A DNA stretch of 47,417 bases from a virus. The translations under genes and the position numbers were made by a program. The stretch covers positions 1 through 47,417 of IMG/VR virus record IMGVR_UViG_3300025732_000070. One strand, written 5' to 3'. The notes under the pieces are model-generated. The model did no database searches. It was not told where the DNA came from and saw only the letters and a list, made by a program, of their open reading frames with translations. Below, piece by piece: positions 25,744 through 47,388 of the stretch (positions within the stretch are counted from its first letter, which is position 1; the number at the start of each line of letters is the position of its first letter).

Positions 25744-25792
25744 TTAAGATTCCTTTACAGATAGAGTAAGTTTTGCGGGCGAAATAACAACT

Positions 25793-25828: not shown

Positions 25829-25829
25829 T

Positions 25830-28957: not shown

Positions 28958-29160
28958 TAGAGTCGTCCAAACTTAACTTCAGTTACATCTAGGTCAATTA
29001 GCGGTGCAATGATTTTTTGTGCCTCTGATTCAGTGTTGCATGAATCAACAATCTGCCCGCGATGCACTACTTCCCATGTTGTCTTGCTATCTGCGTCCAC
29101 TCGCTGAATGAAGGTAAACGTATCAACCTTCCGCTTTGCGGCGGAATCGTCTAGTGGCAT
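28957..29160 (-). CDS. Small hypothetical protein
   Basis: 67 residues, charged (FTFIQRVDADSKTTWEVVHR). Single-base overlaps with both neighbours. Possible minor virion or chaperone protein; unknown. Confidence 0.5.
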   Translation of the reverse strand: MPLDDSAAKRKVDTFTFIQRVDADSKTTWEVVHRGQIVDSCNTESEAQKIIAPLIDLDVTEVKFGRL

Positions 29161-30901: not shown

Positions 30902-31017
30902 TTCGTCACCTTCTTGGATGCTTCACGATTGAGGCGTTCGATCTCTGCTTCAGCAGCCCACAACTGTAGTTGCAGTTCGCCAATCTTTGACCTAATAACC
31001 TCAATCGTGAGTTCCAT
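30898..31017 (-). CDS. 39-residue coiled-coil micro-protein
   Basis: MELTIEVIRSKIGELQLQLW then AAEAEIERLNREASKKVTK: heptad-like Leu/Ile spacing indicates a short coiled coil. GTGA overlap with the gene downstream and a TAA just before its ATG support translation. Confidence 0.6.
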   Translation of the reverse strand: MELTIEVIRSKIGELQLQLWAAEAEIERLNREASKKVTK

Positions 31018-31022
31018 TTAAC

Positions 31023-31517
31023 TTACTGCCAGTACGGGAGCCACGAAGCCACGCCAGCAACCTTGATAGGTAGCCAGCCAGCCTGAGTCTCCGATGCTGG
31101 GCGACCTGCGCCGCCAGCCTTTAGCAGTGTTGCTGTAGAACCAGTACCGTCAGCAACGCCCGTGCGGGCGAAGTTGACGTAGTTGCTTGCTGCGCTACCG
31201 ACGTTCACATCACCGGTAGAAACCCCACCGATGGTGATTGCGCCGGAACCCTTGGCGTTGAATGTCATTGCTTCGTTAGTACCAGAAGAAATAACTTCAA
31301 TCGCTACATCATCTCCCTCCGCTGCGCCGGTAATCTTAATACCGGTTACAGCGTCGGTGGTGGCAGCGTCTACCTGAAAGATGTAGTCAGTGCCGGTCTG
31401 CGCTACAGTCATAGCGTCAGCGGCGTCAGCCGTAACGTTGATAACGTCAAGCGCAGCCGAGTTTACGTAGCCCTTATTCGTAATGCCGGGGATAACAACT
31501 CCACCGAGTAGAGTCAT
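31023..31517 (-). CDS. Capsid-associated protein, beta-rich
   Basis: 164 residues, Ala/Thr/Gly-rich repeats of short beta strands (ALDVINVTADAADAMTVAQ, GSGAITIGGVSTGDVNVGSA). Such sequences occur in head fibres and tail spikes. It lies two genes downstream of the major capsid gene. Confidence 0.55.
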   Translation of the reverse strand: MTLLGGVVIPGITNKGYVNSAALDVINVTADAADAMTVAQTGTDYIFQVDAATTDAVTGIKITGAAEGDDVAIEVISSGTNEAMTFNAKGSGAITIGGVSTGDVNVGSAASNYVNFARTGVADGTGSTATLLKAGGAGRPASETQAGWLPIKVAGVASWLPYWQ

Positions 31518-31528
31518 TTCAAACCCCC

Positions 31529-31918
31529 TTAGTTACCAGTCGGGCGACGGTAGCAACCAACAATTGTAGTGTTGGTAGCAATGTTGATGCGAATAGTACC
31601 GTTGTCCTGAACGTAGCGACCAGCCGGGATAACTACCATGTATGGCTTGTCAGCCGTAAGGGTAATTGCCGAAGAGTTGCCAATACCAGAGTTCTCAGAC
31701 GGTGGCTCATCGCCAGCAACAAAGGTTGCAGTAGCGCCGCCAGCGGCGTTGTAGAACGTAAAGACAAGGTGGCCCGTGTCACCCGCAGGAGCGGTGATGA
31801 CAGCGACGTTTCCCGCCGTGACCGAAGTGCCAACCGAACCGGACGAGAAATCGCCGGACGAAGCGTAGCCAACGGTCGAGAAGTCCATGTTAGTTACTGC
31901 GACAGCAGTGTCAGCCAT
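31529..31918 (-). CDS. Putative head decoration protein
   Basis: 129 residues. TAPAGDTGHLVFTFYNAAGG and ADKPYMVVIPAGRYVQDNG suggest a small beta-barrel. Its place directly after the major capsid gene is usual for decoration proteins. Confidence 0.6.
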   Translation of the reverse strand: MADTAVAVTNMDFSTVGYASSGDFSSGSVGTSVTAGNVAVITAPAGDTGHLVFTFYNAAGGATATFVAGDEPPSENSGIGNSSAITLTADKPYMVVIPAGRYVQDNGTIRINIATNTTIVGCYRRPTGN

Positions 31919-31934
31919 TTAAGTCTCCTCTCCC

Positions 31935-32807
31935 TTATGCTTCAGTTACGTCAATGGACGCCAGTGCGTAAGGACGAGTGACCTTAGCGCCGTAGACCAT
32001 TAGACCGAAGTTGTTGGTGTAGAAACCGGTGGGCGCTTCGACCTGCTTAAACTTCGTAACCTGCTCCGCAAAGGTAGCAGCGTCATCGTAGCCAGCAATA
32101 ATGGTCTTAGAGCCGGGGGTACCGCCGTCTGGGGTGTTCGTGGACACGTACACGCGAAGGCCAGACACAGTGTCGATACCAAGGATGCCCTCACCGTACT
32201 GAGAGACGTTCTCCGGGGTACCGAAGGACGAACGGCGTGGGTCTTTCTTAAGAACACCGGCATACCACGGGGGAACCACGCACCAACGACCGTCCTCTGG
32301 GACGAAGTTGTTGCTGAGGGTCACAGCGAGGTCAACAAGAATCTCAAAGGCGTCGTCGTCACCAGCGCCGGTGCCAACCGAAGTGGCAGCGGTCAGTTGG
32401 TTGGCGGCCTGTACGCCATCCTGAAGAATACCTGCAACGTACGTGTCAACCTCGACGCGCATGTTGTAAGCGGCACGGCTCATGGCCTCTTCCATGATGC
32501 CCTGTAGCGCCTGAACGTCGTCAACGTCGTCGTACTTGAAGCCGAACGTGCGGCCCTGATCAGCGATAAGCACGATGTCAGTCGTGGTTAGCGTCTGAAG
32601 GGACACGTCGGTGTTGCGGGTGTATGCACCAATTGAAATGTCAGCGACGGTCTGGATGCGAACCGAGTCGCCCTTTTCCTTGAGGATGCCTTCGTACTTG
32701 CGGTTGCATACGTTGGCGTAAACGAGAACACGGCGTAGAGCGCGCTGAAGTTCCTCAGCCCAAAGTTGAGGAATTGCACTCTGTACCGTTGATGGGTAAA
32801 GCGCCAT
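31935..32807 (-). CDS. Major capsid protein (HK97-fold)
   Basis: 290 residues. VWAEEL-type start (IPQLWAEELQRALRRVLVYA), CNRKYEGILKEKGDSVRIQT, the helix AMSRAAYNMRVEVDTYVAGI, WCVVPPWYAGVL and FGLMVYGAKVTRPYALASID are the familiar segments of this short HK97-like capsid family. The upstream scaffold gene confirms context. A strong promoter lies upstream of both. Confidence 0.85.
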   Translation of the reverse strand: MALYPSTVQSAIPQLWAEELQRALRRVLVYANVCNRKYEGILKEKGDSVRIQTVADISIGAYTRNTDVSLQTLTTTDIVLIADQGRTFGFKYDDVDDVQALQGIMEEAMSRAAYNMRVEVDTYVAGILQDGVQAANQLTAATSVGTGAGDDDAFEILVDLAVTLSNNFVPEDGRWCVVPPWYAGVLKKDPRRSSFGTPENVSQYGEGILGIDTVSGLRVYVSTNTPDGGTPGSKTIIAGYDDAATFAEQVTKFKQVEAPTGFYTNNFGLMVYGAKVTRPYALASIDVTEA

Positions 32808-32833
32808 CTTGGGTAGGTTCCTTTAGTTTGGCC

Positions 32834-33706
32834 CTAGCCTAGCGCAGCCCTGAAGAGTACATCTCGCGCTTTCTTGAAGTCGCTATCCGAGAGTTTACTC
32901 ATCCAACGCTGCCGGTCGGCATCGGACATGTTGATAATTTCTTCTGCATTCATACCTCCAGCAATTGCACCTGACGGGGTAGTGGGCGCATTGGTGCGCC
33001 GGTTACTCTGTAGGTTGCGAGCGTTCAGTTCGGTTTCGACTTCCTTTTGAACCTTCTCGGCAATTTGCTTGTAGAGTTTTGAATCCTGCGGGACTTCATC
33101 AAGGGAAAGATCGGTTAGTGTCTTTGACTTAACTGTCTTAGCGGCGGCTTCCCACGTCTTAGAGGCAATGTCTACCATGCCATCCGGGTTATCTTCCATA
33201 CTATCTAGAATGGAGCGGATAACTCCCGCCTCGGATTCTCCGAAGTTATTAAGAGTGGCTTCAACCCACGCCTTGCTCAGTTGAGACTTAACCCAATCCT
33301 CATTGGCTTTGACCATGAGTGGAGTCTGCTTGGCAAGTTGAGGCGGGATGTATCCCGTTTCCTCAATCTGCTTAATCAGATTCTCGTGGTAAGCCTGAGC
33401 CCGTGCGATAGACCCCATATCCTTGCGGAGTTCTGATTCAAAACGCTGACGGCCAATGTTTTCGCCGTCCTTGCGTTGCTTTTCCAGAAGCCCCTTTAGG
33501 TTAGGGAACTTGTCCGCAATCTTCAGGATTCCTTCATCGGATTCCAGCAGACTGGGATCGAACGTTGACCCGCCATCAGCCACAGCCTCGTTACTCCCGG
33601 CCACAGCATTCAGGTCTGGGGTGGTCGCACCATCTAGGTGTTCACCCATTCCCTCGGGCTGCTCCGATACGGCAACGTCGGACTGCTCAGTAGCAGTATC
33701 TGGCAT
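32834..33706 (-). CDS. Scaffolding protein
   Basis: 290 residues: acidic, disordered N-terminus (TEQSDVAVSEQPEGMGEHLD), a long coiled coil from about residue 55 (LKGLLEKQRKDGENIGRQRF), and a helical C-terminus (MSDADRQRWMSKLSDSDFKK). This composition and position just before the capsid gene are typical. Confidence 0.8.
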   Translation of the reverse strand: MPDTATEQSDVAVSEQPEGMGEHLDGATTPDLNAVAGSNEAVADGGSTFDPSLLESDEGILKIADKFPNLKGLLEKQRKDGENIGRQRFESELRKDMGSIARAQAYHENLIKQIEETGYIPPQLAKQTPLMVKANEDWVKSQLSKAWVEATLNNFGESEAGVIRSILDSMEDNPDGMVDIASKTWEAAAKTVKSKTLTDLSLDEVPQDSKLYKQIAEKVQKEVETELNARNLQSNRRTNAPTTPSGAIAGGMNAEEIINMSDADRQRWMSKLSDSDFKKARDVLFRAALG

Positions 33707-33721
33707 CTTTCTCCTCGGGCT

Positions 33722-33737
33722 ATCTGTATAAACAGAT
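33722..33737. promoter_or_regulatory. Palindromic operator copy 1
   Basis: ATCTGT-ATAA-ACAGAT, perfect 6-base arms with N4, between the capsid promoter and the scaffold start. A second copy with the same arms is at 33787-33802. Confidence 0.55.
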
Positions 33738-33766
33738 TAGCCAATATCCTCTAGGTTTGCCCCTGA

Positions 33767-33795
33767 AGGATACTGGCTAATTGTTAATCTGTCAA
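33767..33795 (-). promoter_or_regulatory. Promoter of the capsid-tail operon
   Basis: Minus-strand TTGACA (33795-33790) and TATCCT (33772-33767) with a 17-base spacer; transcription would start about 55 bases before the scaffold gene. A 13-base stem with one wobble (TTAGCCAGTATCC/GGATATTGGCTAA) spans the start site, so the transcript begins with or near a hairpin, or this is also the terminator of the upstream operon. Confidence 0.6.
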
Positions 33796-33802
33796 CACAG
33801 AT
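33787..33802. promoter_or_regulatory. Palindromic operator copy 2, overlapping the -35
   Basis: ATCTGT-CAAC-ACAGAT; the TTGACA -35 box lies inside it. A protein bound here and at 33722 could loop DNA and block the promoter. Confidence 0.6.
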
Positions 33803-33808
33803 AAACGT

Positions 33809-36800
33809 TTAAGGAGTGCCAGCCATATTGGAATAAATAGCGTAAAGCAATTCTGTTTGGTCTTTAGTAAGTTTCCACTTTGTCTTATCAGTATCTGGCT
33901 TAGTTCTTTCTTCGTCAAACTTCTTTAACGCCTCTTGGGGGTGGCTTGCCATCCACTGCATTTCCATGAGGTTTTTAAGTTCGTTGTAAACTTCTACATA
34001 CGGGTGCTGTTGAACCAATTTGTTGGCTTCAATAGAAGCAAACTCTTTTGGAATACCTCGGCCAATCAATTCCTTAGTAACGCCCTCTAAGGTGTTTTGA
34101 TACCATTCGCCGTAGTTCTTTGAGTCACCCAGATCCTCAAAGTTTTCTTTCATAACGCCCCAAGCAAGGGGGTTGATTCCCCTGAACTGGTCTTCGGGGG
34201 TTAACTGCTCATACCGTCCACGCTCAACCTGCTCACCAACGGTAAGCGGCGAAGCCTTAACACCAGTCAAGCCAATAGCAGTCTTTGAAATGGGCTCTGT
34301 GCCAATTTCAGATACGCCGAATGGCAGCAATTGTCGCAGGAAATACTCAGGCGTACCGACCTCTTTGCCAGTAAATGTCTTACCCGAAAGCAAATCCCAA
34401 GCAATACCAACTGCCGGGGAGGCTTTGGTGCGGGCAATGTATGAGAAGTCACCCTTACCGGCAGAAGAGATAGCCCGCATCAGGGAGTCCCATGGGCCGA
34501 ACAGGGATACATCGTTACCGCCAACATCACGGATACGCATGAAGTTTGGGTCGTCTGGGTTGAATGAGGTTTCCTCGCCACGGGCAGTGTTAGCAGCGTA
34601 GGTTAGAAGGGTGCCTACGCCAATTAGATTTCGTAGCGACTTAAAAGCCTGATCCCTAACAATGGGCTCTCCGCCTAATAGGGCGCTTCCCAGCAGGTCT
34701 AACTGAGATTGGAAGAATCTAGGGGCGAACGTTGCAATTTCACCCAAGTCTCCAGCAAAACGTCGGTTTGAGTAACCAGTCATCAGGTTGGAAAACTTAG
34801 TAATTTGCCTCAGTTCGTTTTCAGATAAGGCCCTTTCGCCAACATTCATGGCCCGGTAAAGTCCATCGTTTGAAAGCAGCCTGAGCGAATCGCCAAAAGA
34901 ACTGAACGCACGTTCTGATTGAGCAACGCCGGGTAGTTTGCCTACCAATTTGCCAACCCTGCCAGATGCAGATGGGCTGAACTCAGTAACTCCACCTGAA
35001 ATTTTGCTACCAAGAGAAGCCCAGTCGGCTGAGGTTAGCCTGCCCGCCTGCCTTGCAGAATCATCAAATGTACTAACAAATTTACCAAAGGCGTCAGGGT
35101 CAGCGATAGACTGAAGTGCTACCTTCATAGCCTTGCCGTATTGAATGGGGTGTGTAGCGGCTCCTAGAAGCCCCTGAATGCCCATGAATGACAGGTCGGC
35201 AGATGCACGTAGCCCGCGCATGATGTTGTTAAATGCTTTTGTAATACCCAGTACCTGAGAACCGCGACCAGAAAGTTGCATCTCTTGGTTAAGGTATTTG
35301 TTGGCTACGTTAGATACTTCTGCCGGGAATGAGGAACCGGTTAAACCGTAAAGACCAATAGACCCGGCTCCGGGTTCTTGAGAAGCGCGCTCTAATGCTG
35401 TCTTCCAAGTACCACGAATCTCGTTGAGGTCGGTTTTAGTTTGAATAAGAGCCTTCTGTAAATCTTCGCGGCTCATGCCAGCGTACGTGCCGCGCTTAAC
35501 AGCGGCTGGCAACGCTGCTCTTAGTTCTTCAATGTCAGTAAAATCTGGGTCGCTGATAAAACGCTCAATTACCCTAACGGTGTCATCGTTAAGGCTCTTC
35601 TCTGCTACTAGCAATTTCTTCAGAGAGTTATCAATTGCGTCTTTCTTAGCAGCAAGTGCGGGGTTTGAGGCAAGCAGAGATTCCTTAGCGGTCATTCCAA
35701 GACCGCTTTCCTTAAATTGGTTAGTGGCCCATTGGTCGCCTACGCGATTGCCTAAATCACGAATGTAAGATTGAAGTGACTCTGAGAATGGGCTGTAGGT
35801 GTATCCCTGTTGGATACCAGTTGCCATTGTTCCAAATTCTTCAGGGCGCTCAAAGCCCTTCTTGGAACCGCGCATTGCAGATGAGGCACGAACCAGTGGC
35901 TGATCTACGCCTTCTTCTAAAGCACGACCACGGGGAAGGTAGAAACCGCCATCAATGATGTCAGCGCGCATGTTGGGCGTAACGCCCATTTCGGTAAGCG
36001 CCTGATTGAATGGCGCTAGTTCTTCACGAAGGCGTGTCAGCCCAGACAGTTGCTTTTCATTAAGGTCGGGGGCGTATAGTGGCAACTTAGCGGCAACATC
36101 TTGTAGGGTGGGCGCACCCCCGAACTGCTTGAGCCCGCCATTCTTGTCAGTGTCAAACAGGTTGTATACATAGTCAGCAAGATTACCAATGCGATTTGCT
36201 TGAGAATCTGTAACTTCTCTAATACGCCTGCGTTCTTGCATAATCGGCGTAGAGTATTCGTTGTCTAGTACCCCGAACCCAGTTGTTTCTTTTAGGTGAT
36301 TTAGAAGTGTCTGTGTTCTGGAAAGTTCTGGCTCTACGTTTTTAATTCCAAATACAGATTCGGCTACTGTTTGCGGCTTAAATGCTTTTGCCGCTGATTC
36401 CGCACCAATACCCTTAGTAGCAAGGCGTGATGCTGCCAAACCGCCACCAAGTAAACCGCCAGCAACACCAGCGGCTAACTGTGCGTCTTCTGAAAGACCG
36501 GCCTTTTCTGCTAGATACTGACCGCCCTCTGCGCCGTATGTGCCAGCAAGGTTTAACCCTGCCGCGCTAAGAGCCCTTGCACCAAACGAGCCAATCTCTG
36601 GGCTGGCACCTAAAGCCTTACCGGCAATGCCTAGACCGCGTACTCCAGCAATGGGCGCAGCGCCCACACCGGCAGTAAGGAAGGTAAGTGGTGACGCCCC
36701 AACGTCAAATGCTGTACGCGCTAGACCGCCAGCATATGGAATGCTGCCGATGGTTTCACCAAGTTCAGTGCCATACTGCCTTCCCTGCGGGGAGACAAGG

Positions 36801-37072
36801 TTTAATGCGTACTCAGCAGATGACAACCCGCGTAGAGTGCGACCGCCAAAATCCCTAACCCCTTGAGGGACAACGCTTCGAAATAAATCAGCAGCCTCGC
36901 CTAGAAAACCTTTTTGCTCTGGCTGTAATTGATAATTACTTATACTTGCAGATTGCTGAGTTGGTGGGTTGTAGATGTCTCCCGGATACAACGGCTCAGC
37001 ATAGAGTGGTTCGCTACTGCTTTGTTCTGGTTGGCTATTTGCTACTGAATACCAAGAGTTATCATTGACCAT
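33809..37072 (-). CDS. Giant virion protein, probably internal/ejected
   Basis: 1087 residues. Disordered Pro/Gln/Ser N-terminus, then Gly/Ala-rich segments with amphipathic or membrane-like stretches (residues about 110-230: ARTAFDVGASPLTFLTAGVG, AAGVAGGLLGGGLAASRLAT), a long helical middle, and a charged C-terminus. No peptidase, transglycosylase or polymerase motif seen. Size and Gly/Ala patches resemble internal virion proteins ejected into the host envelope by podoviruses. Overlaps the upstream gene by 11 bases. Confidence 0.6.
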   Translation of the reverse strand: MVNDNSWYSVANSQPEQSSSEPLYAEPLYPGDIYNPPTQQSASISNYQLQPEQKGFLGEAADLFRSVVPQGVRDFGGRTLRGLSSAEYALNLVSPQGRQYGTELGETIGSIPYAGGLARTAFDVGASPLTFLTAGVGAAPIAGVRGLGIAGKALGASPEIGSFGARALSAAGLNLAGTYGAEGGQYLAEKAGLSEDAQLAAGVAGGLLGGGLAASRLATKGIGAESAAKAFKPQTVAESVFGIKNVEPELSRTQTLLNHLKETTGFGVLDNEYSTPIMQERRRIREVTDSQANRIGNLADYVYNLFDTDKNGGLKQFGGAPTLQDVAAKLPLYAPDLNEKQLSGLTRLREELAPFNQALTEMGVTPNMRADIIDGGFYLPRGRALEEGVDQPLVRASSAMRGSKKGFERPEEFGTMATGIQQGYTYSPFSESLQSYIRDLGNRVGDQWATNQFKESGLGMTAKESLLASNPALAAKKDAIDNSLKKLLVAEKSLNDDTVRVIERFISDPDFTDIEELRAALPAAVKRGTYAGMSREDLQKALIQTKTDLNEIRGTWKTALERASQEPGAGSIGLYGLTGSSFPAEVSNVANKYLNQEMQLSGRGSQVLGITKAFNNIMRGLRASADLSFMGIQGLLGAATHPIQYGKAMKVALQSIADPDAFGKFVSTFDDSARQAGRLTSADWASLGSKISGGVTEFSPSASGRVGKLVGKLPGVAQSERAFSSFGDSLRLLSNDGLYRAMNVGERALSENELRQITKFSNLMTGYSNRRFAGDLGEIATFAPRFFQSQLDLLGSALLGGEPIVRDQAFKSLRNLIGVGTLLTYAANTARGEETSFNPDDPNFMRIRDVGGNDVSLFGPWDSLMRAISSAGKGDFSYIARTKASPAVGIAWDLLSGKTFTGKEVGTPEYFLRQLLPFGVSEIGTEPISKTAIGLTGVKASPLTVGEQVERGRYEQLTPEDQFRGINPLAWGVMKENFEDLGDSKNYGEWYQNTLEGVTKELIGRGIPKEFASIEANKLVQQHPYVEVYNELKNLMEMQWMASHPQEALKKFDEERTKPDTDKTKWKLTKDQTELLYAIYSNMAGTP

Positions 37073-37304
37073 TGAAAATGCCAGTGTTGTTTTCTGGGGT
37101 AATCTTTGGCTTTGTTGAATTGGCGGCGTGCGTGGCTAGTCGCATTACAGCAAGAGAAAATTCAGTGGGCGCACCGCCATTGTTTACAGCGTAATTGTCT
37201 ACTTGAAGAACATTACCCGGATTAGAGTATTGAAACTCTGGGTACTGCGTCTTCATGCGTTGCATACGCTGATGAGTCCACTGGGGCGGTTCTGACATAG
37301 CCAT
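37062..37304 (-). CDS. Small virion-operon protein
   Basis: 80 residues (QWTHQRMQRMKTQYPEFQYS, VMRLATHAANSTKPKITPEN). Start overlaps the upstream TAA. Unknown; conserved-looking in such operons by its tight coupling. Confidence 0.55.
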   Translation of the reverse strand: MAMSEPPQWTHQRMQRMKTQYPEFQYSNPGNVLQVDNYAVNNGGAPTEFSLAVMRLATHAANSTKPKITPENNTGIFNGQ

Positions 37305-37606
37305 TATTTCTTGCCCTTGTTACGCGCCGAGATGGCCTTAGCCTTGCTCTTGGCGTCAGCCTTAGACGAAGCGCCCCACGCCTGAAGAGATAGGAGCAAG
37401 CGGGTTGGTCGCCCCTTTTCGTCACGCTCTGGCCCCGGTGAGTTACCCATTCGTGCTAGGAATGAAGCGCGTCGTGGGTTGTCGCCCGACTTGACTGGTG
37501 GCTTAAGGTTGTGACCTTCCGCACGAGCGGAGGCCCTTCCCTTCTCATTAAGGCCGCCAGCGGGGTTCTGGCCTTCCTTACGCTGCCAAGCCGGGGTCTT
37601 TGCCAT
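37304..37606 (-). CDS. DUF6321-like basic protein
   Basis: 100 residues. AWQRKEGQNPAGGLNEKGRA, GDNPRRASFLARMGNSPGPE and TRLLLSLQAWGASSKADA follow a family common in environmental podovirus genomes. Very basic C-terminus (AKSKAKAISARNKGKK). Could bind DNA or portal/terminase complexes; role unknown. Confidence 0.7.
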   Translation of the reverse strand: MAKTPAWQRKEGQNPAGGLNEKGRASARAEGHNLKPPVKSGDNPRRASFLARMGNSPGPERDEKGRPTRLLLSLQAWGASSKADAKSKAKAISARNKGKK

Positions 37607-37762
37607 CTACTTCTTCTTGCCCATCATGCGCTTGGCCTGCATCTTGTCGAGTTTCATGTCGGCCTTAGAGCCTTCCTTGTAACCCATCTTCTTGTCGCGG
37701 GCCTTGTCCTCACGGGACTTCTCGACCATCTTCATAGCCTTACCCATCGTCATCTTCGCCAT
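37607..37762 (-). CDS. 51-residue Lys/Met-rich protein
   Basis: MAKMTMGKAMKMVEKSREDK then ARDKKMGYKEGSKADMKLDK. Highly basic with many Met. TAATG overlap with the upstream gene and directly followed by the next ATG. Similar short basic genes are regular neighbours of DUF6321 genes. Confidence 0.65.
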   Translation of the reverse strand: MAKMTMGKAMKMVEKSREDKARDKKMGYKEGSKADMKLDKMQAKRMMGKKK

Positions 37763-37914
37763 TACTTTTCGCTCCAAATCTTAGCCTTGTTAGACTGAAC
37801 AATAACTGCTGGATTCTGCATTTCGTCCATCAGGCGGGTCTTGTGTTCTGGGTCGTGCATGATTTCACGGTGCGTTTCCATCATGCGGTCTGGGCCGGTG
37901 TATGGCTTATGCAT
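37762..37914 (-). CDS. 50-residue hypothetical protein
   Basis: MHKPYTGPDRMMETHREIMH then DPEHKTRLMDEMQNPAVIVQ. TAATG overlaps on both sides. Helical, His/Met-rich; function unknown. Confidence 0.6.
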   Translation of the reverse strand: MHKPYTGPDRMMETHREIMHDPEHKTRLMDEMQNPAVIVQSNKAKIWSEK

Positions 37915-38090
37915 TACTTTGCTCGCTTTCGTCCGGTTGCGGACATCTTCGCCATCTTCTTCTCGCCGTACTTCTCACGGCCAATAGACGCTGCTACTGC
38001 TGCCGGGTTCTTGGCCCCACCCTTGGCAATAGACTTTTCGAGGGCGGCAAATCGACCACCGCCACCCAACTTCATGGACTTACCGGCCAT
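37914..38090 (-). CDS. 58-residue basic protein
   Basis: GRFAALEKSIAKGGAKNPAA, VAASIGREKYG and SATGRKRAK. A familiar small phage protein with a central K-G-x-x-N-P-A-A-x-x-A-x-I-G-R-x-K-Y-G pattern. TAATG overlaps on both sides. Confidence 0.65.
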   Translation of the reverse strand: MAGKSMKLGGGGRFAALEKSIAKGGAKNPAAVAASIGREKYGEKKMAKMSATGRKRAK

Positions 38091-38221
38091 TACCCCTTCC
38101 TACTCTTCCCTGCTTTTGACAGGGCAATTGCAATTGCTTGTTTCTTTGGCTTGCCAGCCTTTACCTCAGTCTTGATATTTTCTGAGATAACCTTCTGGCT
38201 TGAACCCTTACGGAGTGGCAC
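38090..38221 (-). CDS. DUF6496-like 43-residue protein
   Basis: GTG start with AGGAGG ten bases upstream: [20 protein letters not shown], then [17 protein letters not shown]. This is a widespread short phage family. First of the four tiny coupled genes; follows a 73-base gap after the 773-residue gene. Confidence 0.75.
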
Positions 38222-38294
38222 TACCGAGCCTCCTATTCTGCCGTGTACGTCAGGGAAATAGGGAAAACCTTGTACCGTGCTAGGCCCGGTAGTG

Positions 38295-40616
38295 TCACGC
38301 CGACCTCCGCGTAACCTGCTGGCTTGCGCCTTCAGGTGCGAGAAGCGATGCTTGACGCAGGAATGTTTGCGCGGGGATACCGCGAGCCTGCGCGTTAAGA
38401 GAGCCAAGGATTTGCGCCACTACTGGGTCAGTTCCCGGAGTAGATGCGTATACCGCACTTGGCAAGTTTGCAGCCGTCCACGGAGTGCCGCTGAGGGCAT
38501 TCTGTAGCGACTTGGTTAGGAAGTTGCGGGCTTCGGTTGTATCCTGCATTGGAAGTTCGCCAAATACAGAACCGTCAGTTGTGCCATTGGCGTAACGCGG
38601 GTAGTCCGTACCTTCAGCGTAACCTTCTAAACCAATAACATCCATTGGGTAATTATAACCCGGAATGTAACCGCCGCCAGATGATGCACCCATTTCAGCA
38701 ATACGCTGCTCTGGAGTAAGCGGTCGCTGATAATTATCAAATCCGGTAAATCCCCGCTCTTGACCCCCCGGTGTGGAGCCATACAGGCGGCTTAAGAAAC
38801 GGCTTGCCCCTCCTAGGGCATTCAATGCAAGATTCCCAGCGCCGAATGCGGGGGCAAGCATAAAGTTTCCAAGTCGTTCTTGACCTGCGCGAAGGCGCTG
38901 GTCAGCACTATATCCGGGAAGAACTTGACCGGGCTTTTGGTAAGCGTACTGACGGTTTGCTTCATCAATTGCTGCTTGTCCGTAGTAGTGCGGGCGGCCT
39001 TGCGTGGTAACTGCATTAAAGGGGGCGGGTACATAACCCATATCTTGTTCGCCCCAGTTATATACTGGGGGAGTGTAACTTAGTGGTGTTTCATAGTCAG
39101 AGGCATATGGGTTAACAGGATTTTGCATTTGCACTACTGGAATTACAGTAGTAGGCAGTTGCATGCCAGTTGGCGCTTTTGTTTCTGGCGCTGGCGTTGG
39201 AGTTGGCGAATATCCATGACTCTTAAGAAGGGACAGGGCCTCATCTCCGCGACCCGCAAGTGTCATTTGTTCTAAGTACTTACCTAAAGCGTAACCAGTA
39301 GGCTCATCTGTACCGTCAGCGTATCGTTGCGGCATGGTGCCCCCAAAGTATTTTGGCAATTCATTGTTAGGCACCACTTTAATAGGGGCCTTAGTTGGGT
39401 TGATAATTAGTTCTTCAGTACCGGCTGGCTTGCCATCACGGCGATCACCAACGATAAACTTTTCTTCGTTGGTCATGCCGCCTTCGGCCATGCCGCCACC
39501 GCCGCCACCTTCCCCGCCCCCGCCACTTCCGCCTTCTCCACCACCGCTACTTCCACTTGAAGAAGGAGCCGGTGTTCCTCCGCTTCCCCATGCACCTGCA
39601 ATAGCCTGACCATTATAAGTAGCGCCACCAACTGGTACATTAGACTGGATCATACCGCCACCAAAATTTGTAGATGTTGGTGTATTGGACGTGGCGGTTG
39701 GATTAGGATTAAAAGGCTTAGGCGGTGCAGTTGTTTGGAAGTTTGGCATAGTCATTCCGGCAAATTGCGGAATATTTGGAGCCACAATTGGAGTGTAAGT
39801 AAACGGCGACCTCATTGCCCGGATTTCTTCACGAAGCCCGAGGTCTTGCGCCAGTGGTTGCAGCGACTCGTCAGTAATCTGATTGCCTTGGGCAAGGGCC
39901 GTGTTGGCCCTGCCCCAGCCGCTGTTAGCAAGCAAGGTAGAAGCAAGTTTAGCGCGGTCGCCGGGGTCGGCGGCAAGAACACCAATGTCTTTAGACAGTG
40001 CAGCAAGGCGTTCTTGCCTGCCAGCCTCAAATTGTGCGGTAGCCTGCTGAACTGCAAGTTGGTTGTTCTGGTTTTGAATAGCAACCTGAGCGTTTAGGTT
40101 TGCCTGAAGCGCCTGCCGCTGGAATTGCATGTCATTAATCTTGGCAGAATTTTCAAACATGCGCTGCTGAGTAGTGTTGTACTCAGCAGTTAAACCTTGG
40201 GCTTGCTCATATGCGCCCTTGTATTCTAGAAATAATTGAGCGCGTTTAGCAATTCCAATTTGCTCGTCTTGCTGATAAATTTTTCTAGTTTCATTGGCAT
40301 TAGCAATATCGTCTTGAGTTTTTTTGTATTCAAAACTCTTTAGCCATTGTTCTGCCTCTTGCGCCCGTTGTGCTGCTGCGTTGGCAGCAGATACATTTGC
40401 CCCGTACATAGAAGCATTGGCGCTGATACGGGCGGAAGCGGATGGGTCTGGCGCTTGAACGCCAGTAAACCGCATTACCCCACCGGGAAGCGCCAATACG
40501 TATTCCCATTGGTTGCTTCTGCTGTTAAATCCAACCTGCCCAGTTAAATCACCAGTGGGTGGCCTTGTCTCATCTGGAACAAAAACAGGCTTACCGCCTA
40601 CTAATTTCCATCCCAT
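38295..40616 (-). CDS. Large virion-associated protein
   Basis: 773 residues. Residues about 60-270 are a long Gln/Ala-rich coiled coil ([40 protein letters not shown]). A Gly/Ser linker follows (about 350-375), then two YADGT/YAEGTD-type segments ([37 protein letters not shown]) and a Pro/Tyr-rich end. The coil plus disordered half suits an internal core or portal-plug protein. Confidence 0.6.
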
Positions 40617-40945
40617 TATTGTTCTCGCTTCATTAGCGGGGATTCATCCACGTCGCGTACATATTGTTTAACAAGGTTATCATATACCCTTGGGGAAATT
40701 ACTTTTAGCATGTCCATTACTCCGCGACGCGCCATGTCTTCTACACGGGCAATGCGCTGGCCTCGGTCTAGGGGCTTATCGCCCACTGTCTCGCCGTCTG
40801 GCCCAAGCATTGATGCAATGAGTTCCTTGGACAAATCAATGCACTGGTCAAATGCCTGCTGTCGTACTTCGTCCATCAGTTCTACGTTGAGGTTAGGCAA
40901 GTGCCGCCCCTGCCATGAGGTACTGGTTAGCCTCTCGTCTGCCAA
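40616..40945 (-). CDS. Small portal-adjacent protein
   Basis: 109 residues, helical (MDEVRQQAFDQCIDLSKELI). It overlaps the portal end by 53 bases; a start at the ATG at 40876 would avoid the overlap and keep the helical core. Single-base overlap with the 773-residue gene. Unknown function. Confidence 0.55.
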   Translation of the reverse strand: MADERLTSTSWQGRHLPNLNVELMDEVRQQAFDQCIDLSKELIASMLGPDGETVGDKPLDRGQRIARVEDMARRGVMDMLKVISPRVYDNLVKQYVRDVDESPLMKREQ

Positions 40946-43082
40946 GGGTTTGTGACAGGTCTGCCGCCATCCCCATACCGGGCTGGACTACACCAGAACT
41001 GTAGGCAACGTTTGCCCCACCGCTAGGGCCACCGCCCTGACCAAACTGTGCCGCTTCTCCAGTTTCTGAAGGCCGCATAGCCTGAGACTGCTGCACCATC
41101 TGCTCAGCGGTAGCAATTGCGTAGTTAGGGGATTCATTTAGTAGGGCGTAATTGACAGCGCCACGTACAGAGTCGGCCACAACCTTGATGATGGGCTCAA
41201 CGCCGCCCGGCTGCGGGTTGGGGTTAGCGCCCGGTGGGAGAATGCCAGACATGACGTAGGTAACAACCTGCTGTACGTACATATCAATGACGGCTTGGCG
41301 CGAATCCTCAGTCTTGTCGTATTCCTCAAAGAACTTCTGGTAGTCAATAAGACCGCCCTTAAGAAGTTCGATACCCTGCTGTACGCGGATAGTGCGCTCG
41401 CCGGGAGTGTCAAGTTCCTGTGCCACAACAATGGAGTCGGTCAGGTTTTTGGGATCAAACTCAATAAGCGAGCGGAATTCACGGCGAGAACGACGTGAAC
41501 CGGGAGCGGCAAAAAAGTAGATTGGCACATCGAGGTCGCGCATCCAGTCGTGCCACATCAGGATGATTTGCTTAACAGCCTGAGCGTGGTTGTCTACCGG
41601 CTGGCGTAGGGTTTCCTGAGACTGCTGGATAAGTTCACGCACCTGCCACGCAGCGGCGGATGCGCCAGCAACGCCGGAAGTTACCGGTGAAGGCATCATC
41701 TTGTCTAGTTGCTGTAGGTATACTTCAAGCATCTTCTCAATTGACTTAGTATCAATTGTCAGTTGCTTCAGGGTTCCGGGGTACGCTGCCGCCTCATTGG
41801 GGTCTAGTCCCGGTACTTCACCCGCTTCAACCATCTTGGGCTCACCGTCTTCAGTGCGAAGGGTTGAGCCATTGGTTAGTTCTACTACCCACCGGGGGAT
41901 TCCATTGAAAGCGGCAGCGTTAGAAGCAAGCGTAAGAAGTTGGTTAATCTGTGGGACAATACCAAAAATCTGGTTCAGGGGTGTAGAGAACTCCTGACCG
42001 TGCAGTGATACGTCCGTCTGGAAGAACGGAACTTCTACGACTGGACAGGTTGGTACACCCATGATTGTGCACCCGTGTTCACCACGCCAGATTTCTGTCG
42101 CGGTATCCACTGAACCCTGCCCAGAGATAAGGATCACCTCCTCTGTGCGGGTGAAGAAACGAATGAGCGTATATACGTCAGACGATTCCCAGTCAGAGTT
42201 AAGGGGGGCTCCCTTCGGAATGCCGCCAACAATCTGGCCCGTTTTCTTGTCAACAAATAGGCCGTAGCGATCCATGTCCTCAGCGTCGATGCCCTTGTAT
42301 TGAGCAGCGGTCATCGCCAGTTCGGAACCCGGAGCGCAATACTCGTAAGGAATTTCCTCAATGATTGCGGCCCACTTGATGCCATCATTGTCTTTTTCGC
42401 GCAGTACCATGTCGCGCGGGTATGGCTGGACAGTGAACAGTGAACGCCCAGACTCGAAATTCACCTCCATCGCACGCTTGCGACGGGCTGACCAGACATC
42501 GCCATGCTCGGCGTAGACCATCTTTCCGCCCTCTTCGTGAGGAACGGAGGCAATTAAGCCTTGCTTCTTGAGTTCTTCAACTTCTTCTTGGCTCTTGTCC
42601 GCGTACATGATGCGGTCAGGAAGGCCGAAGTTGGCGTCACGTGGGAGGGTGAGGTAGTACCCAGCCCCACCTACAGACATGGCCCAGCCCATCTGCCACT
42701 GAGCGTCACGTCCACCTGACTCAACCCACAACTGGGAGTCTAGGCGCTCCTGTGCGCCAGCCATCTTGTCTACCGTGTCAGAAATGTTGTTCTTGGTAGT
42801 AATTGGGATGACAGAAACTTCGGGGCGGTTCGATGCAATGCGCGCAGCGTAGTGCTGTGCAGCCTTAGCCGGTGCGCCAATCATGGAGCGGATGGCTAGA
42901 GAGGTCTTCTGGAAGGGCGCAGGGAGCAGGGTGCCGGTCTGGTTGCCGTCTGCAAAGTCTGCGGTTGCTTGGTTAATAAGCGAACGACGAACCTTGAGGT
43001 TCATCATTGTTTTTTCGTGCGCGTATCGGGTACGTTCTAGCAAACGTACAATACGGGAGGTAGAAAGCGAGTCATCCGTCAC
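40893..43082 (-). CDS. Portal protein
   Basis: 729 residues, close to the 725 of P22 gp1. GTG start overlapping the upstream TGA. Helical wing and stem segments: KTSLAIRSMIGAPAKAAQHY, AQWQMGWAMSVGGAGYYLTL, NQIFGIVPQINQLLTLASNA, MMPSPVTSGVAGASAAAWQV, then the Gln/Gly-rich barrel end (AEQMVQQSQAM). Follows the terminase genes, which fixes the identification. Confidence 0.8.
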   Translation of the reverse strand: MTDDSLSTSRIVRLLERTRYAHEKTMMNLKVRRSLINQATADFADGNQTGTLLPAPFQKTSLAIRSMIGAPAKAAQHYAARIASNRPEVSVIPITTKNNISDTVDKMAGAQERLDSQLWVESGGRDAQWQMGWAMSVGGAGYYLTLPRDANFGLPDRIMYADKSQEEVEELKKQGLIASVPHEEGGKMVYAEHGDVWSARRKRAMEVNFESGRSLFTVQPYPRDMVLREKDNDGIKWAAIIEEIPYEYCAPGSELAMTAAQYKGIDAEDMDRYGLFVDKKTGQIVGGIPKGAPLNSDWESSDVYTLIRFFTRTEEVILISGQGSVDTATEIWRGEHGCTIMGVPTCPVVEVPFFQTDVSLHGQEFSTPLNQIFGIVPQINQLLTLASNAAAFNGIPRWVVELTNGSTLRTEDGEPKMVEAGEVPGLDPNEAAAYPGTLKQLTIDTKSIEKMLEVYLQQLDKMMPSPVTSGVAGASAAAWQVRELIQQSQETLRQPVDNHAQAVKQIILMWHDWMRDLDVPIYFFAAPGSRRSRREFRSLIEFDPKNLTDSIVVAQELDTPGERTIRVQQGIELLKGGLIDYQKFFEEYDKTEDSRQAVIDMYVQQVVTYVMSGILPPGANPNPQPGGVEPIIKVVADSVRGAVNYALLNESPNYAIATAEQMVQQSQAMRPSETGEAAQFGQGGGPSGGANVAYSSGVVQPGMGMAADLSQTLGRREANQYLMAGAALA

Positions 43083-43330
43083 TCAGCACCGCCATGCTTG
43101 CGGGAGTGGGACTTCATACCAAAATCAGACTTGGCTTCAAACCCACAGGTTGAGCAGATAATAGCATCTTTAATGCTAATTTGTCTACTCTCTTCAACAA
43201 TTGGTGGTGCAGTCTCTACTGATTTGGCCTTTACAAAGAATTCATCCGGCCATTTCTTTTTAGGCACACACATTCGATAATGTGCGTAATCAGTCTTAAA
43301 ACGATAGCAGTTTTCACAACGGCTAGACAC
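43079..43330 (-). CDS. C2H2-type zinc-finger protein
   Basis: 83 residues. RCENCYRFKTDYAHYRMC at the start is a Cys-rich zinc motif; the C-terminus CSTCGFEAKSDFGMKSHSRKH is C-x2-C-x12-H-x3-H, a classical C2H2 finger. Lies between terminase and portal, so it may act in packaging or late regulation. Confidence 0.65.
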   Translation of the reverse strand: MSSRCENCYRFKTDYAHYRMCVPKKKWPDEFFVKAKSVETAPPIVEESRQISIKDAIICSTCGFEAKSDFGMKSHSRKHGGAE

Positions 43331-43508
43331 TGATATCTCCCCATCTCACGCCACTCTTGCGCCACTTACCAAAGGCAAATACTTCCATAATGCCCTCATG
43401 GCCATCGAGAGTGTGGTCGATGGCAAACTTTTCCTTGGGCGAAGTCTGTCCACAAGCGCAGTGGTAGCGGTAATCGCCATTCTTGTTGGGTACAGCGATG
43501 TCGTTCAT
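43323..43508 (-). CDS. Small zinc-knuckle-like protein
   Basis: 61 residues. YHCACGQ and a later DHTLDGHEG give Cys and His ligands of a C2H2-like site. ATGA-coupled to TerL and overlapping the C2H2 gene by 8 bases. Confidence 0.55.
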   Translation of the reverse strand: MNDIAVPNKNGDYRYHCACGQTSPKEKFAIDHTLDGHEGIMEVFAFGKWRKSGVRWGDISV

Positions 43509-44977
43509 ACAGCATGTCTCCGTAGCGGCTTGCCGCTGAGGGTTCTATTGGGCAGTTTTGTTACACCGCGTAGCGCCCACGACAGTTCCATGATGGCGTA
43601 ACGCCGTGCGTCCATAGCGTCAGCGTGGTGGTTTACCGGGGTCTTGGTGGAGTACCGGGTGCGGTCATTTGGGTCAGTGCGGTCTGACCAGCGGTATCCG
43701 GGGAATTCGCTAATAGAGTTTTTACATTCGGGGCTTATAGTAAGTTTGTCATTTTCCAACAGGAACGCAACCATGCCAAGGCCCTCGCCTCGGCGGTTGT
43801 CAGCACCACGAGCGGGGATACCTTGAGCCTGAAGCGTAGAGATAGCAACTGGTTCGGTCGGGTCACAAACAACAGTGCCGATTGGGTATTGGCTAAGGAA
43901 GTTGATCAATTGATCAACGCCCACCGTGCCCGGTTTGTAGAACTCGGCGTACTGATGTACATGATGATGTGAGTCCATCCCAAGGACTACGATAGCCGTA
44001 GGGTCGCCACCACCAAAGTCGATACCCGCTACCACCCGAATGCAGTCCTCAATAGGAACCCGCTGCTCCCCCACATGGCGGTGCCTATCGAACTGCGGGA
44101 ACACCAGCCCTTGTCTGGCAACGAATGCATCGTCTTCTGAGTCTGGGTAGAAGGCGTCAAACTCCTCCGGCATGCCGGTATACGCCGCACGTTCTACCGC
44201 CAGCCACGCCTCATCACGCCCCGGACGCGCTGACCAAGGGATGAATACAGCGGTGTAAGGCGTTTCGCCCTCTGCTGAAGCCATGTACAAATCATGGAAT
44301 AGGCCCGATGGCCCAAGCCTTGGGTTAGCAGTAGATAATGCAATAAACTGTCCACCAGCAGAAAGAGTAGGACGAAGAGCGGCATAGTTGGATTCTCCCC
44401 ACGGGTGAAAGGCTAACTCGTCCATCACTGCTAACTGGAATGTGTACGAAACGCCAGCATCCTCTGACGACGGCAGGGCCATGATGCGCCCACCGGAGTC
44501 AAACTCAGCGTCGTCCGTCCTCCAGTTCACAATCCCCCTCTTGGACGGAGGCAGGGAGAACCATGCCCTCCGGCACCGGGTCAACAGTTCCCGCGCTTCT
44601 CTCTGACCTACGGAGAAAAGGGCCACTCGCCACCCTGAATACATAGCGCGGTACAGCGCATACAGCACAATGGCTTCCGACATGCCTAACTGGCGTGCCT
44701 TTAGGATGATTTCGGAGTTGCCCTGTTCCCACGACTCAAACCGTTCTAACTGATGCGGCCAACCTGTGAATGGAATTAACTCAGGCTTAATGGGATCGTC
44801 AGAGAGAATACGAACTATCTTAGAGAACTCAGTGACCGAAGGAGGTTTGGCCCGAGCGGCATCACGTTTCTTAATCAGCGAAATAGCCGCCAGTACCTCT
44901 AAGGGTACGTCGGTGGTATGAAGCGGCTGTTTGGCGGTTCTAGGAATCTTGGTTCCCGGACTTCGTGAACGGATAAT
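43505..44977 (-). CDS. terL: Terminase large subunit
   Basis: About 490 residues. ATPase: KARQLGMSEAIV (the deviant Walker A seen in many phage terminases) and Walker B VMDELAF with the coupling STANPRLG. Nuclease: RNase H-like GIDFGGGDPTAIVV, VVCDPTE and NHHADAMDARR supply the metal-binding acids. Packages DNA into the prohead through the portal. The frame is open up to a TGA at 44987, but no ATG, GTG or TTG exists between it and the Walker A region. I start at the ATT at 44977 provisionally. An ATG at 44981 lies in another frame that stops after 13 codons. Confidence 0.85.
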   Translation of the reverse strand: MIRSRSPGTKIPRTAKQPLHTTDVPLEVLAAISLIKKRDAARAKPPSVTEFSKIVRILSDDPIKPELIPFTGWPHQLERFESWEQGNSEIILKARQLGMSEAIVLYALYRAMYSGWRVALFSVGQREARELLTRCRRAWFSLPPSKRGIVNWRTDDAEFDSGGRIMALPSSEDAGVSYTFQLAVMDELAFHPWGESNYAALRPTLSAGGQFIALSTANPRLGPSGLFHDLYMASAEGETPYTAVFIPWSARPGRDEAWLAVERAAYTGMPEEFDAFYPDSEDDAFVARQGLVFPQFDRHRHVGEQRVPIEDCIRVVAGIDFGGGDPTAIVVLGMDSHHHVHQYAEFYKPGTVGVDQLINFLSQYPIGTVVCDPTEPVAISTLQAQGIPARGADNRRGEGLGMVAFLLENDKLTISPECKNSISEFPGYRWSDRTDPNDRTRYSTKTPVNHHADAMDARRYAIMELSWALRGVTKLPNRTLSGKPLRRHAV

Positions 44978-44982
44978 ACATG

Positions 44983-45426
44983 TTAATCATTATTACCCGA
45001 CTTAAGCATGAGGTTAATTCTCTGCGCTTCTTGGATAAGTTCTGTTTCGTCTACCCCGTAGGTGTTAGCAATAAGCGAGATCGCCCGCACGTCCACTTCC
45101 CGCTTGTCACTAAACTCACGATGACGCTTGGCAAGGAGGGTAAGGGCTGAGACACGGGCTGCATGCGGTGCCGTTGGGTCGGTCGCGATCGCCCACCCCT
45201 CTCGAACGATGTCTTCAGCCGTTACCTCTGCCCGCTGGAATACTCGGTCACGGACTTTATCTAGTTCCCGGCTAATCCGTGGGTCTTTCATCAGCCGAGC
45301 AGCGGTTACGTCGGCGCTTCCTGCTGCATACCCGGCCCGGATAGCCGCCTGAGTCCCATTGTTATCAATAAGGTACTCTTGAACAAAGCGGGCTTGCTTC
45401 ATTGTTAACTTAGGTCGTGCTGCCAT
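44983..45426 (-). CDS. terS: Terminase small subunit (Terminase_2 type)
   Basis: 147 residues. LTMKQARFVQEYLIDNNGTQ, AAIRAGYAAGSADVTAARLM and VTAEDIVREGWAIATD are hallmarks of the family; the N-terminal HTH recognises pac/cos DNA. I start at the ATG at 45426 (ATMAARPKLT), not at 45453, because the promoter -10 lies only six bases upstream of it, which implies a leaderless message. Confidence 0.85.
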   Translation of the reverse strand: MAARPKLTMKQARFVQEYLIDNNGTQAAIRAGYAAGSADVTAARLMKDPRISRELDKVRDRVFQRAEVTAEDIVREGWAIATDPTAPHAARVSALTLLAKRHREFSDKREVDVRAISLIANTYGVDETELIQEAQRINLMLKSGNND

Positions 45427-45432
45427 GGTGAT

Positions 45433-45460
45433 AGTGTATACACAAATTATCATTTGTCAA
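45433..45460 (-). promoter_or_regulatory. TerS promoter with embedded palindromic operator
   Basis: Minus-strand TTGACA (45460-45455), 16-base spacer, TACACT (45438-45433), then six bases to the ATG. A palindrome ACAAAT-TATC-ATTTGT (45442-45457) fills the spacer and touches the -35. The transcript probably starts at or next to the ATG. Confidence 0.65.
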
Positions 45461-46247
45461 TAACATGTGAAAATAACCTAGCATAAAGTGCCTAGTCTAG
45501 AAAAATATCCTGTATTTTTTCAGGAGTCTAATTACCTAGATTACTGACTCCTGTATTTTTACGGGGCGCTATGGCGTCTAAAGCGGGCTAAAAACACGTG
45601 GGCGGCACGGCCCTAAGGGGCCTCACGAGCCCGCTTACTCGGGCGTGGTACTTAGTGCCACTGCGCCACGGAAGCGCGCTGTAGACGCTTCCTGCGGGCT
45701 TTAGGCGCGGTTCTGATTCCCTTATTGCAGTGGCAGAAAAGGTGGGGGCTGGATTTTTTGTTGCAATTTGTAGCGGGGATGTCCCCCCGCGCGGCGCCGC
45801 CGTCGCGGTCGCCCGTCTCGCCGCGGCATGCCATGACGCGCGTGTCATGTATCGCTTGTCGTGACAGACAGAACAGCGTAACCGCCTAAGCAAATTAGCA
45901 GAATCAGCCGGGAGCGAGGGGTACCGGTACGGGGTCGGGGTATGACGTCACCTGCGACCGGGCCAGCGTGCCAGAACATCCGTTCTCCAGAACATCTGTT
46001 CAGCACGTCTGTCCTATCCGTCCACTTGCATATACGTCTTATCAATTCCTAGGTGGGCGCATCGCGGATACCCTACCTAGGTATGGCATCACCAAGTATC
46101 AACAAATTGATAGCACCGCCAGAAACTATCACAACTTTAATAGAAATTGACCCTAGATATCAATTTAATGTTACACACGGCGCGGCTGGCCTGCTTAACT
46201 GTCTCCAGTGGCAATGAACACCGGACACGAACGGAAGGGACGCACGA
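45461..46247. other. Non-coding structured region upstream of TerS
   Basis: About 790 bases without a convincing gene. It contains repeated CCTAG/CTAG words (near 45479, 45492, 45535, 46049, 46077, 46153), successive hairpins at 45605-45700 (GCCCG-CTTACT-CGGGC, TGGTAC-TTA-GTGCCA, GGAAGCG...CGCTTCC), a CCTAGGT/ACCTAGG pair at 46048-46081, TATCAA-CAAA-TTGATA, and two GAAC-N4-GTTC sites. Its place before TerS suits a packaging site, origin or control region. Confidence 0.6.
45521..45553 (+). terminator. Inverted repeat followed by a T-run
   Basis: CAGGAGTC and GACTCCTG with a 17-base loop, followed by TATTTTTAC on the plus strand. May stop rightward transcription from upstream of TerS. Confidence 0.4.
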
Positions 46248-46667
46248 ATGAACGCGGTGATGGTCAAGTCTGGCGGTCGGCAACTCCCGTGGCGCTTCGG
46301 CAGCGATCAGCACAAGCGCGCGATCCAGCGTGCGGACGCAATCGCGTCTCGCTGGCAGGTGGTCGCCAAGTAGAACGCACGTTCGAGTCTGGGGCAGAAC
46401 GCTTGTTCTGACCCACTCGCGAACGGATGTTCTGTTCGGGATAAGGTATCGTTATGTTCACCGAGGGCGCATTGCGTCCGTGGGAAGTGCTGATGCGCGA
46501 TCCCATCGGGCGGCAGCCGAAGGCTCAGAATCTACCGTGGCGATTCTCCGGGCGTGCTAGCACGCTGAAGATCAACGGCGTCGAAGTTGCGCGCAAGCCG
46601 CGCACGGTGAAGAACACGCGTTCTACTAGCGTCAGGCGAACTACTGCGCCAGTAGAACGGACGTTCG
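45973..46667. promoter_or_regulatory. Seven GAAC-N4-GTTC palindromes (SOS-box-like)
   Basis: Sites with GAAC starting at 45974, 45990, 46373, 46397, 46421, 46612 and 46655, each GAAC-N4-GTTC. Flanking bases are mostly A before and T/G/A after. The first two are 16 bases apart centre to centre; sites 3-5 are 24 apart from each other. One overlaps the stop of the 46248 gene, two precede the 46454 gene and two lie inside it. The pattern equals the LexA box of Firmicutes and Actinobacteria. Confidence 0.8.
46248..46373 (+). CDS. 41-residue LPWRF-motif protein
   Basis: MNAVMVKSGGRQLPWRFGSD then QHKRAIQRADAIASRWQVVAK. AAGGGA lies upstream of the ATG. It shares the LPWRF core with the product of the next gene. 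Its stop codon overlaps a GAAC-N4-GTTC site. Unknown function; small basic protein. Confidence 0.55.
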   Translation: MNAVMVKSGGRQLPWRFGSDQHKRAIQRADAIASRWQVVAK

Positions 46668-46723
46668 ACAACAACGCCCGGCTGGAAATTTCCCGCGGAA
46701 TTCGAGCGAATCTGGCGATCTAG
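46454..46723 (+). CDS. 89-residue LPWRF-motif basic protein
   Basis: Starts MFTEGALRPWEVLMRDPIGR, has QNLPWRFSGRASTLKING, then a very basic Thr/Arg-rich part (RSTSVRRTTAPVERTFDN). Related in its first third to the 46248 product. AAGG lies nine bases before the ATG. Two GAAC-N4-GTTC sites lie inside the coding sequence. Unknown function. Confidence 0.5.
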   Translation: MFTEGALRPWEVLMRDPIGRQPKAQNLPWRFSGRASTLKINGVEVARKPRTVKNTRSTSVRRTTAPVERTFDNNARLEISRGIRANLAI

Positions 46724-46782
46724 GTATTGCACTTAGTATCGCGGCATGATTTGATCCTATTAGTGAAGGGACGGCACAAGTA

Positions 46783-47388
46783 ATGCGGGCATACCACTTC
46801 CTGCAATACGACATGACCACATCTAGTGGGGACGAACCCGCGTGGACGGTGGGGGAGACACGCACCATTCCCGCTAACCGCAAGATCATCCCGTGCGAGT
46901 ACGGCTATCACGCCTCGCCTACGCTGTTCGATGCGTTGACATACGCGCCGGGTTCTATTGCTTGTGTGGTGGAACTCGACGGCGACGTAACCCCGCACGG
47001 CAACCCGCCGGACAAGTACGCCGCACGTTCGCGGACGCTGATTGCCGCTGTTGACCTGACGGTTGCGTTGCGACTGTTCGCTGCTGACTGCGCCGAAAAA
47101 GTCCTCCCAATCTTCGAGAAGGAGCGACCAAACGACGACCGCCCACGCAAGGCGATCGAGGCAGCGCGCGCCTACGCCGGAGGCGAGATCGACGCTGCGG
47201 CGGTGGCTGCGGCGTGGGCTGCGGGGAGGGATGCGGCGATGGCTGCGGGGAGGGCTGCGAAGAGGGATGCGGCGAGGGATGCGGCGAGGGCTGCGGCGAG
47301 GGCGTGGGATGCGGCGTGGGCTGCGGAACGCGCATGGCAACGCCAGCACTTCAACGCCACTGTCCTACCGCTACTTACTGCTGAATGA
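46783..47388 (+). CDS. DUF7666-like protein with Ala-rich repeat tail
   Basis: 201 residues with GAAGGGA before the ATG. The N-terminal ~110 residues ([58 protein letters not shown]) are a known uncharacterised phage/bacterial domain, which I recall as DUF7666. The C-terminal part repeats A-A-x-A-A-W/R units ([20 protein letters not shown]) and then [15 protein letters not shown]. Function unknown. Confidence 0.65.
47198..47335 (+). repeat. GC-rich repeat of 6-, 12- and 18-base units encoding an Ala helix
   Basis: Variants of GCGGCGAGGGATGCG / GCTGCGGGGAGG follow one another in frame and encode the Ala-rich tail of the 46783 gene. Copy number is likely to vary by replication slippage. Confidence 0.75.

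Follow-up and report, generated by a model that had tools for sequence, protein, structure and literature searches.

The stoperators of mycobacteriophage L5 are asymmetric sites, distributed genome-wide and bound by the phage repressor, and in the coliphage 186 tum type, an integrating phage, host LexA represses an antirepressor (switch) gene through one or two boxes. Two further systems offer precedents in which a host regulator governs phage development. In the Bacillus thuringiensis phage GIL01, host LexA acting on dinBox1/1b represses the early promoter P1 (PMC4551915), and the phage encodes a LexA homologue of its own (PMC6182141). Phages of the Alphaproteobacteria carry arrays of CtrA sites, for which binding and regulation have been shown and the term 'lytic deferment' is used (PMC9437464).

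The locus considered here, a cluster of GAAC-N4-GTTC palindromes, partially resembles each of these systems. As in L5, many copies of one binding word occur in a phage genome; the array is, however, palindromic and local, and no repressor gene was found in the domain scans described below. As in the 186 tum type, host LexA is proposed to act over a phage switch, but here through an array over an early operon and in a phage for which domain searches found no integrase. GIL01 likewise combines GAAC-N4-GTTC (SOS) boxes at early genes with a non-integrating phage; host LexA is the presumed repressor here, and scans found no CI-like repressor of the phage's own. GIL01-type phages persist as extrachromosomal prophages. 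The two differ in that GIL01 is a tectivirus with two sites, a flanking C and its own LexA homologue, whereas 7-10 sites with a flanking A occur here in a tailed phage with a terminase, in which a PF01726 search found no such homologue. The CtrA arrays are similarly dense, local and mostly intergenic, and their sites also turn over between close relatives, but CtrA belongs to the cell cycle, whereas the sites here are of LexA type and would respond to DNA damage. On balance, we favour reading the array as a set of host LexA operators that would silence the early operon for as long as the DNA is undamaged; so read, it would more probably than not be the LexA equivalent of CtrA 'lytic deferment'.

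The window, by which we mean the whole stretch of DNA analysed, comprises 47,417 bases and is a complete virus record. A pattern search over its full length returned eight exact matches to GAAC-N4-GTTC, seven of which, each 12 bp long, form the array and span 45974-46666 (693 bases). A sequence-only reading had described seven such palindromes in about 700 bases, located in spacers, over a stop codon and inside a gene, and the search and the ORF coordinates agree with it; by eye it found no further copy in the window, and an eighth, isolated copy is present at 34904-34915 within a minus-strand structural gene. This lone copy is the number that chance would give; dinucleotide-preserving shuffles of the whole window contained a mean of 0.88 matches, and 4 at the most. 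For the 693-base stretch the expectation is about 0.013 matches, and the Poisson probability of seven or more is about 1e-17.

Sites 1 (45974-45985, GAACATCCGTTC) and 2 (45990-46001, GAACATCTGTTC; 16 bp after site 1) lie in a spacer. Site 3 (46373-46384, GAACGCACGTTC) has as its flank the TAG stop codon of the ORF at 46248-46373, which forms the beginning of TAGAACGCACGTTCGA. Sites 4 (46397-46408, GAACGCTTGTTC) and 5 (46421-46432, GAACGGATGTTC) follow at successive distances of 24 bp, the former in a spacer and the latter directly upstream of the start of the ORF at 46454-46723, and sites 6 (46612-46623, GAACACGCGTTC) and 7 (46655-46666, GAACGGACGTTC) fall within that ORF. All seven have the core RNNY, as in the LexA-type pattern GAAC-R-NN-Y-GTTC, and each reads RNRY in at least one orientation. 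Seven of the eight copies in the window are thus confined to 693 bp, two of them intragenic. A scan for promoter consensus sequences gave weak minus-strand matches only, none of them at the sites and none convincing.

Structural genes occupy the minus strand, including those for the terminase large subunit (TerL, 43505-44683), which served as our query for finding relatives, and small subunit (TerS, 44983-45453), which forms the left border of the array region; the long spacer with sites 1 and 2 lies to their right. The sites lie ahead of, between and within the first genes of a rightward, plus-strand early operon. Its first gene is a small ORF of 41 aa (46248-46373) with sites 1 and 2 before it and site 3 at its stop; its positional counterpart in the near-complete, 38.5-kb relative G012 is L022:15135-15359, with no detectable sequence similarity. 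The second (46454-46723; 89 aa, MFTEGALRPWE...) is preceded by sites 4 and 5, contains sites 6 and 7 and has homologues in loci L008, L010, L015 and L016. A third early ORF (46783-47388) has an alanine-rich tail, weak PHROG matches and unknown function. The plus-strand block continues, in a contig described below (G001), with DUF932, GP88 and further families, and the early block at 13.3-22.6 kb of the window encodes a dCMP deaminase, an exonuclease, a DnaB helicase and endonuclease VII. The suggestion that the array times late or lysogenic genes is not borne out: it is followed by the first genes of the early block. Long alanine-rich repeat tails occur in the early proteins encoded at 46783-47388 and at L023 3-926, the repeat being 24 bases different between the window and G001.

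Interpretation of the surrounding sequence requires some caution, as the window is a chimeric assembly. Contig G001 (IMGVR_UViG_3300007363_000011; 38,424 bases) matches positions 13157-28875 at 99.96% and 28876-47299 at 100% identity and extends beyond the window's right end, while positions 1-11904 and 12000-13252 are 100% identical to a separate 60.6-kb contig, G467. Comparison with both places the phage-phage junction at 13158-13276, in a GGTCGT hexamer repeat, and 1-13157 is foreign to the array-bearing phage. The latter apparently has a circular genome of about 38.3 kb, since the two ends of G001 share an exact repeat of 95 bases. The G467-derived part holds the integrase (4544-6280), the XRE-type repressor (2898-3407) and one of two DnaB genes (9358-10836), which are therefore uninformative about the array-bearing phage. 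A temperate lifestyle read from the window's integrase and repressor was accordingly rejected, both lying within the foreign 13 kb. As this join illustrates, lifestyle can be misjudged when it is called from an integrase on one metagenomic contig.

The TerL search identified 11 relatives at 60-61% identity, plus more distant ones. Besides the near-identical L005, seven loci have arrays upstream of TerL, in the same place as in the window and with 3-10 sites each (L006, 4; L008, 4; L010, 7; L013, 3; L014, 4; L015, 10; L016, 10, G012 being the record of L016), though not every one counts as an independent case, L015 sharing its sites with L016 and L006-L008 being closely related. The truncated locus L007 has three sites. 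A lack of conservation in relatives had been named as one half of the grounds for dismissing the LexA or operator reading, and relatives do conserve the sites. The family pattern is TAGAACRYRYGTTCTA. G012 likewise has a site over the stop codon that ends its first early gene (TAGAACGGACGTTCTA), and L008 and L010 have one there with a single mismatch in the box. The DNA around the sites is less constant. L014 and L015 have TerL proteins 99.8% identical and DNA 97% identical from L014:2391 rightwards; to the left of that point they share only two 28-bp stretches, and there are sites there in both. The presence of sites where the DNA itself has been replaced suggests that selection has kept them for a common trans-acting factor. 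The palindromes are very probably sites for a regulatory protein.

The sites keep to the early control region and, in several relatives, lie close around the first two early genes. This bears on the notion of a sponge, in which the replicated array would titrate host LexA and induce the host SOS response for the benefit of the phage. The 7-10 sites per genome exceed the need of one promoter, and two window sites lie within coding sequence, but a sponge could lie anywhere, and given the restriction of the sites we grant it only a very slight chance.

One close relative dispenses with the array. The L009 record has no GAAC-N4-GTTC site and no homologue of early genes 1-2, and its homology to the array-bearing G012 resumes just past the last palindrome; to judge from this comparison, it is a natural knock-out of the array, which is therefore not essential in every lineage. 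L009 also informs the idea that the array is a packaging site (pac or cos) for the small terminase. The array adjoins terS in every array-bearing relative, yet L009 has a TerL 98.5% and a TerS 79% identical to those of G012 without a single site, and homology resumes exactly past the last palindrome. Unless L009 packages differently, its conserved terminase contradicts this reading, the likelihood of which is remote. Repeats for a phage initiator, at a replication origin or for partition, would be consistent with clustering in an extensive spacer from which gene blocks diverge and with an adjoining second, GGTACC-like repeat type. However, neighbouring sites are spaced 13, 16, 19 or 24 bp apart, or further, across members with no fixed phase, they reach into coding sequence, their number ranges from 3 to 10, and L009 manages without them; we consider this explanation very unlikely. 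In the more distant relatives L147-L152, no array was found in the sequence examined.

The second repeat type is GGTACC-rich (ATACCCC-N-GTAGGGTAT-like) and is found beside the array at 45922-45944 of the window, at 2311-2400 of L008, at 1277-1290 of L010 and at 8827-8908 of L009. In L009, which has no GAAC site, it is present in three 26-bp copies.

Host LexA is the likely binder of the array on the evidence of box type and gene content. No LexA_DNA_bind (PF01726), S24 or tyrosine-integrase domain was detected in G001 or G012, PF01726 had no match in G000 either, and 61 proteins, mainly from early regions, included no recognisable repressor when scanned against Pfam and PHROGs. The earlier suggestion of stoperators for a phage repressor fares poorly against this absence of S24, LexA and integrase domains from array-bearing genomes. 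More generally, the palindromes could be operators for a phage-encoded regulator that recognises a LexA-like palindrome and governs early-to-late switching or immunity. Small HTH proteins do exist, namely an HTH_17 protein at 20277-20462 of the window and one at L022:5676-5930 of G012, and L009 has other repeats in place of the array, as heteroimmune relatives would. The two proteins, however, belong to different families and are encoded far from the array, and this alternative, which we hold to be unlikely, would leave the match of core and flank to the lexA boxes of a bacterial phylum without a reason.

The comparison of boxes is informative in this respect. The Gram-positive LexA consensus is CGAACRnRYGTTYC, with C as its first base (PMC2248561), and the Streptomyces venezuelae box is tCGAAC-N4-GNNCGa (PMC9380542). 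The window sites conform to the core GAAC-R-N-R-Y-GTTC of published LexA boxes, while the phage family does not match the flanking C of actinobacterial and Firmicute LexA (CGAAC..GTTCG): of 62 family arms, 39 are flanked by A, 16 by C, 6 by G and 1 by T. We examined lexA loci of the Chloroflexota because the sole genome with a distant TerL relative belongs to that phylum, and the survey covers Chloroflexota alone. AGAAC-N4-GTTCT occurs near lexA in 12 of the best 30 loci, at -19 to -61 in those with an assignable start, and some of the remaining loci have CGAAC-type boxes. Site 4 resembles the lexA box of locus L296 (TAGAACGCTTGTTCTG). Against the CGAAC type, 25 of 31 family sites score higher with the A type, summing to 165 bits, a figure which is not a probability, the sites being related. 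Capture of host LexA, as put forward in the sequence-only reading, thus stands as the best interpretation, but the actinobacterial LexA it had in mind fits worse, the flanking base being A and not C. The boxes upstream of Chloroflexota lexA (L283-L312) are themselves of two sorts, AGAAC..GTTCT and CGAAC..GTTCG, and LexA recognition helices tend to differ with the kind of box (SAVHHHL or SVVDYNL versus STVHNHL).

The flanking A of the box gives a hint of the host as well: in all likelihood this is a bacterium with a LexA that favours AGAAC-N4-GTTCT, and Chloroflexota that have boxes of this type are a candidate. Among genome contigs of 84,980 species, TerL had one relative, at 33% identity, in a Chloroflexota MAG that shares TerL alone with the window at that threshold; this is weak evidence on the host. 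A TerL profile run against 400 Chloroflexota genomes produced distant matches only, in 15 of them, and the DNA matches that the 27.5-47.4 kb part of the window had in 400 Chloroflexota genomes, among which CRISPR spacers had been hoped for, were essentially of low complexity. Relatives of the DnaB, GP88-family and capsid proteins are largely from actinophages (28-38% identity), which would be compatible with an actinobacterial host. At the nucleotide level, 44-47.4 kb had no match among annotated phages, and the portal protein had none among phages either. We would put the case for a Chloroflexota host at slightly short of even.

Host LexA is favoured because the RNNY core is invariant in the seven array sites of the window, because relatives keep their 3-10 sites in one place despite turnover of DNA, because the stop-codon site recurs in G012, L008 and L010, because G001 and G012 are without detectable LexA, S24 or integrase, because the flanking A matches Chloroflexota lexA boxes, and because GIL01 and the CtrA arrays provide precedents. 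Against it, L009 lives without the array, the more distant relatives show none in the sequence examined, no convincing promoter is seen at the sites, and the array might instead be bound by a small HTH protein of the phage. That host LexA represses the early operon seems reasonably probable. In an undamaged host, LexA dimers on the clustered sites would block early transcription, the clustering making repression tight, and a phage without an integrase would wait as an episome or pseudolysogen. During the SOS response, RecA-stimulated cleavage would remove LexA and release the early genes, followed by replication and late genes. The start of infection would then probably be decided by the host's damage alarm. 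To our knowledge, no phage switches have been described in Chloroflexota. More tentatively, and here we are rather doubtful, a lineage of small, apparently non-integrating phages with no repressor of their own may have left the lytic decision to the host, their whole early operon being gated by a 3-10-site Chloroflexota LexA array, an SOS-gated form of lytic deferment. If LexA gating of the early operon is real, host-regulator control of phage development, as exemplified by CtrA and the well-studied GIL01, would also reach an uncultured lineage whose operators are far more densely packed, and would offer a testable link between environmental DNA damage and phage outbreaks.

Viral contigs at large allow the array to be weighed against chance. 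Triples of GAAC-N4-GTTC were found at no fewer than 118 viral loci and those of a control palindrome, CAAG-N4-CTTG, at no fewer than 120; enrichment by raw count is uninformative, and as such counts prove little in a large collection, the present array might be an accident or a tandem-repeat artefact. The two are distinguished by core pattern alone, all clustered sites being RNNY in 70 of the 118 GAAC loci listed and in 2 of the 120 control loci listed. The control matches, moreover, largely represent a single family with (23,13) spacing and YNNR cores, whereas the array consists of non-identical, variably spaced sites kept in divergent relatives; this conservation, together with the Poisson probability above, leaves the artefact reading a negligible chance. 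Of 57 records searched, the majority with arrays, only 2 encode a LexA-type DNA-binding domain, and it may therefore be common for phages that lack LexA to carry arrays of host-type SOS boxes.

Some of these contigs deserve mention in their own right. Locus L041 has eight A-flanked sites at 978-1317 (A in 15 of 16 arms) in a viral contig with no detected homology to the phage family, and L158, the record of L056, is a viral contig that combines an array of the CGAAC type with a LexA-type DNA-binding protein of its own. The CAAG-N4-CTTG triples with 23/13-bp spacing, at about 100 of the 120 viral loci listed (L159-L238 and further), have YNNR cores and look like another widespread operator family.
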